Shown piece after piece: positions 11,867 to 64,000 of a DNA stretch of 64,000 nt (positions are counted from its first letter, which is position 1; each line of letters starts with the position of its first letter). Made by a program: the position numbers and the translations under genes. The notes below the pieces were generated by a model that saw only the letters and a program-made list of their open reading frames with translations, did not search any database and had not been told where the DNA came from. The DNA comes from Deltaproteobacteria bacterium. GTDB lineage: Bacteria; UBA10199; GCA-002796325; JACPFF01. The DNA is taken from contig JACPFF010000027.1 in NCBI GenBank assembly GCA_016183065.1, positions 24,130-88,129 of the forward strand, written 5' to 3'.

Positions 11867-13080
11867 ATGGTCAAACGATCCTCCATAACCCCTGTGCAGC
11901 AGTTTTTGACGGCCAGCCTGCAACCAACGGTGTTGGGGCCCGCCATGGCCGCACGCCGGCGTTGTGGACCGGATGGCGTGGTTCAGAGCATAGGAAGAGC
12001 CGTTCTTGATATGCGACAGGCCGCCGATGCCCGCCGAGGGGTCTCCCCCATGCGGGATGAACAATTCCCCCTTGGCGGCACCTGTTTTGGACGCCACCAC
12101 ACGGTCATCGGACGTCTTCGGTCGATGTATCAACGCGAACCACAACCCCGACGCATTCTTGACGTGGGCGCAGGAATTTTTTCTCTCTTCAGCATGGAGA
12201 ATTGCATTCCCGGCCTTGCCCAGATCCTGAGAAACTATGGGTATGTCGCCGAGGGATTTTCGTACGAGCCGGTCGAACTGGCGACGTTATTGCCGTCTGA
12301 CGGTCGTGTGGACGTGGTGGAGTTCGACGCACGGATTGCCACTACGGTTTCCGCATCGGCCCACCAGATGGTCGTTTCCGTCCACCAACCAGTCATGGGC
12401 GCCTGCCGACGTATCACCGCATCGCAGCTCGCAGCAGGAGACACTGACGCCGTGGCTATCTATGATCAATGGATGGACTATCTTGACAGCTTTATCAGGG
12501 ACTATCCCGAACAGCGCATTGAACTTGCCGCACAACGCGGCACTGCGACGATTCCTCTGGGCTATTGGATGGGATTACCGCTCACGCTCGCCGAGCAGAT
12601 CCATGTCATGCACGCCGATATGGTGCGTTAACTTTTCCTGAGTACATGCGTCTTACGGTACCATAAGTATTTCTAACGTTTAATGAGCACATTTGTACTC
12701 ATTAAACGTTGAAATACTATATCACTGTGCAACCGATTCGTGAGACCTATGATCTGGCGTGGCTGACCAATGTCTATGCCTATATGGCCGATCCGCTCTG
12801 GACCGCGCTCCTCGTCCGTGTCATTGCAAGTTTGCCGATTGGGGGACCTGACGGCGGTGGGCTGTTGGTGACAAATCATTTTGATCAAGACACGAGGATT
12901 GCGGAGACACCCATGGCCGGAGAGATGGGCGCCATATTGACACTCGGTGGCATGACGCTCGTTGACGAAATCCGTTCACCGCTCGACCACTCACTGCCAC
13001 TGATCATTGCCCGGCGGACATCGGCCAGCCGCTGGATCGATGCAGCATGCGCCCTCCTGCGACAGCATGGACTCACGTAA
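11867..13080 (+). pseudogene. methyltransferase-like gene interrupted by R2 element
   Basis: Two reading frames, 11867-12631 and 12709-13080, are the halves of one gene split by an R2 repeat (12622-12718). The first frame stops in the element (ATG GTG CGT TAA). The second frame resumes just after it. Removing 101 bp between the flanking ATAT repeats joins codons as ...HADITVQPIRETYDL... without a shift. The rejoined product (~370 residues) has a SAM-binding-like loop ILDVGAGIFSLFS in the first half and DLAWLTNVYAYM plus LIGG/GGLLVTNHF-type strands in the second, like a CheR-type class I methyltransferase, though many family residues are weak. Upstream ATG at 11867 has AAAAGG at good spacing. 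Confidence 0.72.
12622..12718 (+). mobile_element. R2 hairpin element, copy 1 (inserted in gene)
   Basis: About 97 bp, from GGTGCGTT to GAAATACT. The right half is one long hairpin: AGTATTTC (12666-12673) pairs with GAAATACT (12711-12718), and AACGTTTAATGAG (12675-12687) pairs with CTCATTAAACGTT (12698-12710) around a 10-nt loop. The left half contains the short palindrome TTACGGTACCATAA. ATAT flanks it on both sides (12618-12621 and 12719-12722), consistent with a target duplication. No coding capacity, so any mobility must be supplied in trans. Confidence 0.8.
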
Positions 13081-41663: not shown

Positions 41664-41849
41664 GTGACGGTCCGGCGTTCAGGGCATTGGGTATATCAAA
41701 CGCGCTATCACATCGTTGTTCAGGTCAAGTATCGGAGAGCCTTGTTGGTACCCGAGATCGAGGGGGAGATTGTGCGAATTGGCGGAGAGATTGGCGTGCG
41801 CTATGAAATCGAGTTTGAAAAAATGGAGTGTGACACGAATCACTTCCAT
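41664..41849 (+). pseudogene. tnpA: IS200/IS605-type TnpA fragment
   Basis: 62-residue open frame from a GTG. TRYHIVVQVKYRRALL, GGEIGVRYEIEFEKME and the HxH motif (NHFH) match the N-terminal half of Y1 (HUH) transposases of the IS200/IS605 group. The catalytic tyrosine region is absent: the frame is cut exactly where R1 copy C begins. A dead remnant, but it shows that such transposases have been present next to these repeats. Confidence 0.78.
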
Positions 41850-41851
41850 CC

Positions 41852-42245
41852 ATTGGAGGGACTCACGTGCCCTGCGGCTCCGCCTCCTGGTACTTCCTCG
41901 TCCACCCGCTTCGCGGGTGCCCGGACTCTGTCGTCGCCACACCCCCCTCCACCGGCAAAGCCGGTGGAGCCTCCCCCTCACGCTCGCTGTGCTCGCTGGG
42001 GTACTTCCTCGTCCACCCGCTTCGCGGGTGCCAGGACTCGGTCGTCGCCACACCCCAATCCAGCGGCACAGTGACCGACGTGTTCCCGGTGTGCCAGGCT
42101 CAACCGGACTCAGTGTGCCCGGAAACGTTTCCCTTGAGCGCCGTGGTGCGGTTGGGCCACTGGACCACGGATGTCAGTCCTGTGGGGGCACAGGTGGTGC
42201 CTTCCCCTGGTACCACGGGCGTGAGAGCCTGTGGGGCTCCCGCTC
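41852..42245 (+). repeat. R1 GC-hairpin repeat, copy C (mosaic)
   Basis: Begins ATTGGAGGGACTC right after the transposase fragment. It contains the CACCCGCTTCGCGGGTG block twice, the second time after the CACGCTCGCTGTGCTCGCTGG module, then the second-type module (GCCGTGGTGCGG...GGTACCACGGGCGTGAG). The internal duplication shows that the repeat is built of exchangeable units. Followed at 45 bp by R2 copy 2. Confidence 0.8.
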
Positions 42246-42289
42246 TTCACGTCGTCATTCCGTCGGAAAACAGAATTCAGAGCCTTTAT

Positions 42290-42386
42290 GGTGCGTTAGC
42301 TTTTCCTGAGTATAGGCGTTTTACGGTACCATAAGTATTTCTAGTGTGTAATGAGCACATTTGTACTCATTACACATTGAAATACT
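42290..42386 (+). mobile_element. R2 hairpin element, copy 2
   Basis: 97 bp, GGTGCGTTAGC to GAAATACT. Hairpin arms AGTGTGTAATGAG and CTCATTACACATT plus AGTATTTC/GAAATACT. Relative to copy 1, two stem pairs changed on both sides (T-A to G-C; C-G to T-A). TTAT occurs immediately at both edges. Lies 104 bp before parA. Confidence 0.78.
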
Positions 42387-53640: not shown

Positions 53641-53714
53641 GGTATGTCCGGTCGTTCGTGGTCCCGGACTATGGAGAAAAATATCGATTGCCCGGTGGGT
53701 AATCGGCAACATAT

Positions 53715-53810
53715 GGTGCGTTCACTTTTCCTGAGTACATGTATTCTAAGGACCAGAAGTATTTCTCACGTTTCACGAGCATGTTTGTACTCATGAAACG
53801 TTGAAATGCT
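53715..53810 (+). mobile_element. R2 hairpin element, copy 3 (at tkt ribosome site)
   Basis: 96 bp, GGTGCGTTCAC to GAAATGCT. Stem CACGTTTCACGAG / CTCATGAAACGTT; the A-T pair of copy 1 at the eighth position is a C-G pair here. Ends 3 bp before the GAGGAGGG ribosome site of tkt, so the hairpin stands at the 5' edge of that gene. Confidence 0.78.
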
Positions 53811-53827
53811 ATAGAGGAGGGTTCACG

Positions 53828-58793: not shown

Positions 58794-60485
58794 CGTGCAG
58801 CCACGGGTGCCTGGGAGCGGGACGATGTCGGGTTGTAGAAAATCGATGATGCCGTCGTTGTTCGAATCTTCTTTTTGATCGGCATCGAGGATCCCATCGC
58901 CATTGCTGTCGAGGTCGAGGCGATTCGGGAATCCGTCGTTATCCATGTCGTCGTCGCCCTCGACAATATCGGGGATGCCGTCGTTGTCATCATCCGGGTC
59001 GCAGGGATCGCCGAGTCCGTCCCCATCGGCATCGTTATGATCGGCATTGAACACCGTGGGGCAGTTGTCGTCCACATCGGCAATGCCATCGCCGTCGGTG
59101 TCGGTCGTCTCGTCTTCCGGGTCGCAGGCATCGCCAAGTCCGTCGCCGTCGAGATCGTCCTGGTCGGGATTTTCGACAAATGGACAGTTGTCCGAGCCAT
59201 TCACAAGACCATCGCCGTCGGTATCGCTGTCGCAGGCATTGCCGATGCCATCCCCATTACTATCTTCCTGGTTCGGGTTGGCCATGGCGGGGCAGTTGTC
59301 GAGGGTATCCGGAATCCCGTCACTATCGGCATCGGTCGTTCCATTGCCATTGCTGCCGGCTTCACAGGCATCGCCGACGCCGTCGCCGTCCGCATCTTTC
59401 TGGTTGCCATTGTCCACGAGCGGGCAGTTGTCAGCGCCATTCAGGACCCCGTCGCCATCGATGTCGTTGTCGCAGGCCTCGCCGACGCCGTCGCCGTCGA
59501 GATCGGCCTGATCCGGATCGCTCACATTGGGACAGAGATCGCAGGCATCGCCAAATCCGTCGTCATCGCTGTTGGATTGATCGATATTGGCCTTGTTGGG
59601 ACAATTGTCGATAAAATCGGCAACGCTGTCGCCGTCACCGTCTGTCCCAAAATCGCTGCTCTCCAGCGGTTTGATCACGGTCGCAAAGGGCGAGGTATTG
59701 CCGTCATTGTCGATCGCGGTCGCGGTGACGGGGAGCGTGGGGTTGAAAGTGGCCATATCCAAATGCGCCACAAAAATGCCATTGTTGATCTGCTGTGAGG
59801 AGAGATAATAGGTCTTCCCTTGCGGGACTGCCGCATTCGCGGCATCGGCGCCAAAGATCTCCACCATCGTGACCCCTGGCGTGACCGATCCACTCAACTC
59901 CCATGTCGACGAGTTGATCGTACTCGCCGTCAGATTTTTCGGCGCGGCCAATCCCTTGTTTCCGGTATTGTTCGGGCCGAGATAGATGGCCTTGCTCGTC
60001 ATGTTCACAAAGGTGCTCTTTGAGACCAGATTCCCGTTGCTCCCAAACGTCCCGGAGATCCAGAGTCCGATGTTCGCCGTGTCACATTGGATGGAGCGGA
60101 TTTCATTGGCGCTCCCGACCACGACCATGGCGGTTTTTCCCGGATGGGTGATCTTGAGATCCTTGACCAGATTTCCGCTCCCCTTCAATCGCAATACGGG
60201 GGCATTTGCCGAGGTGATGGCGGTCCCGCTGAGGGTGATCTTTCCACCTCCCACGAGTTCAATCCCGGTGTCGAGTTCAACGGTCTCCGGGACGGTGATA
60301 GTCTTGCCATCGAGCGCGCTGCCAAATGTGATGGGCGAACAGCCGGTCTTGGCAATGGCCGGCAGCGATCCGGCGCCGGAACCGTTCGCCAACGTGACCG
60401 GCGCACAGGGCTGCGCCTCCAACGTCGGGACGATGGCGAGCGCACCGAGGGTGAGGAGGATTGTGAGTCGGAATGCACGGATCAT
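58776..60485 (-). CDS. secreted thrombospondin type-3 repeat protein
   Basis: 569 residues. Signal peptide [24 protein letters not shown]. Residues ~50-200 look like a parallel beta-helix (repeated short strands, e.g. [21 protein letters not shown]). About residues 285-540 are a string of thrombospondin type-3 calcium repeats, each like [20 protein letters not shown] with D-x-D-x-D-G and DNCP cores. Binds many Ca2+ and is likely a surface or matrix adhesin. Start overlaps the stop of the upstream lipoprotein gene by 4 nt. Confidence 0.88.
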
Positions 60486-63630: not shown

Positions 63631-63634
63631 ATAT

Positions 63635-63723
63635 GGTGCATTCACTTTTCCTGAGTACATGCGTCTTACAGTACCATAAGTATTTCTCACGTGTAATGAG
63701 CACATGTGTACTCATTAAATGTT
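63635..63723 (+). mobile_element. R2 hairpin element, copy 4 (truncated, cuts portal-like gene)
   Basis: ~89 bp from GGTGCATTCAC to the end of the second stem arm; the terminal GAAATACT is missing. Stem CACGTGTAATGAG / CTCATTAAATGTT with one G-A mismatch. Only 4 bp after R1 copy F. The final TTA of the stem reads as the stop of the minus-strand gene beyond. Confidence 0.72.
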
Positions 63724-64000
63724 TAAGATCGAATCGCCCCAGTAATCGACACGGGCCCGTTTGCTACGGGGCATCTTGACTCCTTCAAAACGGATCAGAC
63801 GGCTGGCGTTCAGCCGTGCAATGCCTTCCGCCTCTTGGCCCTGGATCGTGTAAAACTCTGGCAGGCCAAAGCCGGGGCGGCTCACATCCTTGATCAGGCT
63901 TTGCGAATCCGGCTGGAGTTGGAAGCGATCCAGCATGGCAATGTACTCAAGACTTCTGAATTTCGCGAGGTCGAGTTCCGCTTCGGGATCGGCATCCTTC
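63715..64000 (-). pseudogene. phage portal-like (DUF1073) gene fragment, truncated by R2
   Basis: Minus-strand frame entering from the right edge: KFRSLEYIAMLDRFQLQPDS ... SRLIRFEGVKMPRS ... DYWGDSILNI then stop. The RLIRFEG ... YWGDSIL strand pattern matches DUF1073-type phage portal or portal-like proteins, in which WGDSIL is normally followed by many more residues. Here the stop falls inside R2 copy 4, so the 3' part is lost. Likely a prophage remnant; the N-terminus is outside the window. Confidence 0.65.

Follow-up and report, generated by a model that had tools for sequence, protein, structure and literature searches.

The Correia elements of Neisseria (CREE/NEMIS) are ~100-155 bp long and carry a 26-bp terminal inverted repeat (TIR) starting TATAGTGGATTAA. 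They have a terminal TA, are mostly intergenic and occur in many copies, and a review reports no insertion sequence with matching ends (PMC5039591, PMC2229807). RUP of Streptococcus pneumoniae, a 107 bp element with TIRs, a TA target and no open reading frame (ORF), has been proposed to be mobilised in trans by IS630-Spn1 (PMC2229807, PMC3049150).

We analysed a short repeat, R2, in a 64,000-nucleotide stretch of DNA from a Deltaproteobacteria bacterium (the window), in its whole genome and in relatives. One R2 copy of the window lies close to a truncated IS200/IS605-type Y1 transposase gene and to a second repeat, R1 (Table 1). R2 is very probably a miniature inverted-repeat transposable element (MITE) like the Correia, RUP and ERIC elements; a TA-specific transposase acting in trans, probably of the IS630/Tc1-mariner type, would move it.

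Copies of R2 and their filled and empty sites

R2 is 103 bp long. A profile search of the whole genome (stretches joined to the full 1,974,857 bases) gave about 26 near-full copies: 27 passed E < 1e-12, of which one was weak (2.2e-13). In addition there were two half copies and several fragments of the ends. The half copies consist of hairpin A alone (locus L026, 1512-1564; locus L030, 1501-1550, minus strand), and that of L026 is a perfect TATGGTGC..GCACCATA. All four copies that an earlier note on this DNA had located in the window are present and begin TATGG. Across the genome every copy starts in this way and nearly every copy ends ACT-N-TA; outside these boundaries the flanks differ site by site, with no flanking sequence shared among copies. 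By a crude ORF call (minimum 120 codons, the longest taken first), 22 of 26 copies overlapped ORFs by less than half of their length, versus 12% of random 103-mers. A copy within an ORF of contig C27 was discounted as a coding location, as this ORF looks spurious (an Arg-rich reading). R2 is thus non-coding, under 200 bp, multi-copy and mostly intergenic, like bacterial MITEs in general. The abundance of the repeats (~26 R2 copies and ~119 multi-module R1 loci in 1.97 Mb) is far above chance.

Table 1. Features of the window that are discussed in the text (positions counted from its first nucleotide).
Feature	Position	Strand	Remark
Truncated IS200/IS605-type Y1 transposase, N-terminal ~62 residues	41664..41852	+	stops just past HUH motif 'HFH'
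R1 copy C	41852..42240	+	mosaic of GC-rich hairpin modules; abuts Y1 fragment
R2 copy 1	12619..12721	+	full length; matches genome consensus exactly
R2 copy 2	42287..42386	+	probable MITE; right end slightly degenerate (..GAAATACTTATAG)
R2 copy 3	53712..53814	+	
R2 copy 4	63632..63727	+	lacks right end
Left TIR of R2 copy 2 (TATGGTGCGTTAGCTTTTCCTGAGTATAG)	42287..42315	+	TIR test done on genome consensus
Hairpin A of R2 copy 2 (TATGGT .. ACCATA)	42287..42333	+	
Hairpin B of R2 copy 2 (AGTATTTC .. GAAATACT)	42334..42386	+	outer 3' arm is the right TIR

R2 was present in 12 of 146 genomes, this genome counted, all of them from one class (the analysis drew on 46 genomes of this class). A pattern search for hairpin B matched 20 stretches among 84,980 species genomes, all titled Deltaproteobacteria MAGs, which would fall in GTDB group UBA10199, and R2 was not found in the viral contigs, plasmids or phages searched. 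The class includes two genomes of the same genus, G007 with R2 and G019, in which none was seen. At def-fmt, at ispD-ispF (gene names read from flanking sequence) and at a third locus, G007 carries R2 and the DNA of G019 continues across the site without it. The def-fmt site is also free of R2 in G024, G029 and G034, and the ispD-ispF site in G014 and G024; for the third locus, G019 was the sole genome compared. R2 is mobile, because insertions of G007 are missing at the orthologous sites of relatives, and these three empty sites bear out the earlier view of R2 as a non-autonomous mobile element. Since several relatives lack R2 at def-fmt and ispD-ispF, parsimony favours an insertion in the G007 lineage at these two sites.

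Ends, TA junctions and paired structure of R2

The two ends of R2 form imperfect inverted repeats of ~18-28 bp (TATRGTnnnTTnAACTTTT..TGAGTAC), with TATGGTnnnTTAACTTTTnnTGAGTAC on the left and, reversed, TATAGTATTTCAACTTTTAATGAGTAC on the right. When the left end was compared with the reversed right end in five genomes, the observed match was reached by 0, 0, 0, 11 and 271 of 5000 shuffles; the first TA was omitted and plain letter shuffles were used, making these numbers rough. The earlier note had described R2 as having a long subterminal hairpin and no long inverted terminal repeats. The hairpin is there (fold z -7.25), whereas the second part of the description does not hold, given TIRs that beat shuffles.

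The TAT that had been reported to precede the four R2 copies of the window is the repeat's own start; what the junctions have in common is the dinucleotide TA, ahead of which the flanks vary. TA stands at both junctions, with A/T favoured on either side. At the right end it is present in 24 of 25 scorable copies, and the base preceding it varies. Filled sites have TA on both sides and empty sites have TA or TC, a pattern in which a TA carried by the element itself would look identical to a duplicated target TA. The insertion at def-fmt falls within the TA of the def stop codon. R2 is inserted at TA dinucleotides, and its mover would leave a TA on each side; such specificity points to a DDE enzyme of the IS630/Tc1-mariner type. 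This assignment of the mover is probable, its basis being the TA junction, the TIRs and the analogy with RUP. The transposase, encoded elsewhere, would bind both ends of R2 and move the element.

The R2-type ends also occur apart from the 103 bp element. A TIR-only motif, TATRGTATTTYAACNTTT, searched with one mismatch, was found in 15 of the 46 class genomes, with up to 26 matches per genome; the reversed control gave 0-1. The matches were often arranged in inverted pairs at a spacing of 102-270 bp. Therefore several size classes share R2-type ends. Genome G009 has a 136 bp element with R2-like ends and a GC-rich internal palindrome (loci L280 and L294). Inverted TIR pairs are seen at 172, 202 and 270 bp on contigs C29, C40 and C46 of G003. 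The similarity of two R2 copies in G016 (L071 and L080) stops at GAAATG, six bases short of the usual right end.

R2 folds into two abutting hairpins, A and B, which would form in the transcript wherever the element lies inside an operon. Hairpin B (AGTATTTC-T-AAC..GTTGAAATACT) has a bulged T that most copies keep. Across 31 distinct copies from this genome and relatives, 96.9% of cells were paired, a percentage partly built in, since the structure was drawn from one of these copies and the copies within a genome are related. The compensatory counts are stronger evidence for the structure. Changes on both sides were found in 11 of 29 pairs among the 31 copies, and the covariation score was 0.186, versus 0.054 for shuffled alignments (reached by 0 of 500) and at most 0.039 for slid versions.

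This covariation, together with the position of some R2 copies between genes of one operon, is what would be expected of a functional regulatory element, an RNA or a protein-binding hairpin that selection maintains at every site, as opposed to a selfish element. However, R2 is present in some and absent from other orthologous operons of close relatives, its copies share no flanking sequence, and Rfam at gathering thresholds gave no match in the window. Moreover, correction of palindromes by template switching could yield compensatory changes without selection. We therefore regard a regulatory function as very unlikely to account for R2. Note that template switching would tend to erase the bulge that most copies keep. 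Hairpin B maintains its pairing through compensatory change and, in most copies, its bulged T; a simple MITE would not require this, which counts against our reading of R2.

The broken Y1 gene and the search for a mobilising enzyme

The earlier note had reported a 62-residue TnpA fragment ending at the HUH motif, and two profiles agree with it: NCBIfam NF033573 (E 1.4e-10, profile positions 2-60 of 126) and Pfam Y1_Tnp (E 7.5e-9, positions 2-54 of 121). When the whole assembly (1.97 Mb in 30 contigs, 88.8% complete) was searched with Y1_Tnp, the missing C-terminal half, which would hold the catalytic Tyr, did not turn up. Apart from the fragment, the profile matched one gene for a REP-associated-type transposase, on contig C2, and nothing else. 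The frame of the fragment breaks at 41852, exactly where the R1 copy begins (ATTGGAGGGACTCAC..), as had been noticed before. R2 copy 2 does follow behind R1, 435 bp from the fragment.

R1 forms a repeat family of its own, GC-rich and modular, with CTATTGGAGGGGCTCACG as its left end, GGGGCCCCAC as its common right end and ~119 loci genome-wide that have at least two GC-rich hairpin modules. Parts of R1 occur in 24 other class genomes and in 0 of 14 genomes outside the class. We considered R1 as a repeat belonging to Y1/RAYT genes and rejected this, the R1 core hairpin lying near only 1 of 30 Y1 loci. The window also holds a 117-nt repeat in six imperfect, closely spaced copies (58987-59643).

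A Y1 transposase had been proposed as the mover of R2. R2 would then be a non-autonomous IS200/IS605-type or REP-like element, and the enzyme would read its hairpins as single strands and insert it on the 3' side of a short target whose last bases are TA. In favour of this, R2 resembles Y1 substrates in its two subterminal hairpins, of which one keeps a bulged T; 38 of the 46 class genomes contain Y1 genes, and a Y1 fragment lies near R2 copy 2. Against this, R2 ends were found at 0 of 30 Y1 loci scanned from the class, and the only full-length Y1 gene of this genome is without them. G016 (98% complete) carries R2 but gave no match to Y1_Tnp, while R2 was not seen in 28 of the 38 genomes with Y1 genes. 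R2 also has TIRs, and TA is its only conserved target where a left-hand target of 4-5 nt would be expected. Movement by a Y1 enzyme is thus unlikely, and we dropped it as the mobiliser of R2.

Because no IS200-type enzyme examined in the group has R2 ends, the adjacency of R2 and the broken transposase gene is apparently a coincidence. By our estimate, it is unremarkable to meet R1 and R2 beside a gene remnant, given that the 119 R1 loci and the 26 R2 copies crowd into the ~12% of DNA that is non-coding. The broken Y1 gene and R1 are best read as repeat debris that is separate from R2 copy 2 and shares its intergenic region.

We also searched the class for enzymes of other types. DDE_3 (IS630) genes occur in 6 of the 46 genomes; the seven DDE_3 loci examined lacked R2 ends, and the clearest of them, L159, has different ends on reading, and IS630 was rejected as a partner of R2 at these loci. 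For an ISAzo13-type transposase there was no match, in a search whose controls also gave none. Among TIR matches with at most one mismatch in the 46 genomes (list read by eye), there were no inverted pairs 0.8-3 kb apart. Two solo right ends (C9:72051 and C15:215091) and the half copies L026 and L030 were examined as ends of a longer element, and no transposase-like ORF adjoined any of them. In the 46 genomes, which are incomplete MAGs, we met no transposase gene of any kind bounded by R2 ends and no autonomous element at up to one mismatch. Such a partner would support a MITE and is not required of one.

One further reading starts from the pairing of the hairpins, the conservation of the bulge and of a C.A mismatch, and the compensatory changes that are seen also among copies of a single genome. 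In this reading R2 would move as a folded single strand by a new enzyme of the class that combines strand-specific recognition of hairpins with TA targeting. We consider this improbable. A MITE moved in trans by a TA-specific transposase accounts best for R2, and the several size variants, together with closely related genomes that have filled and empty sites, make the question of the mobilising enzyme testable.

Comparison of R2 with known small elements

R2 is like the palindrome-associated derivatives of IS200/IS605 in its subterminal hairpins and in being a small element without a transposase gene. It differs from them in its TIRs, in the TA at both junctions and in the absence of R2 ends at the Y1 loci examined. 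By description, R2 is similar to RUP in size, TIRs and TA target; unlike RUP, it has no insertion sequence with matching ends among those found. Also by description, R2 can be likened to ERIC (RU-1) of enterobacteria, which is ~127 bp long, has TA termini and a target-site duplication, and occurs in operons.

With the Correia elements R2 shares its length, the TA at its ends, a mostly intergenic location and a high copy number. In four genomes, the left end of R2 matched the best of four Correia TIR variants (PMC5039591) at 19-21 of 29 positions, a level reached by 0 of 2000 shuffles each; in G007 the match was 17 of 29 positions (39 of 2000 shuffles). Since the best of four variants was taken, these shuffle counts flatter the match somewhat. 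Judged from sequence, the likeness of R2 to the Correia elements is limited to the ends, which appear similar and not the same. R2 differs in having two abutting palindromes, in repeating the end motif internally in direct orientation, in its less perfect TIRs and in its distant host group. The unusual features of R2 are the abutting hairpins, the strong compensatory changes in the second of them and the spread throughout the class.

In conclusion, R2 is a further example of a mobile hairpin that shows strong compensatory evolution, and Correia-like terminal repeats, known from Neisseria, are now extended to a distant uncultured class.
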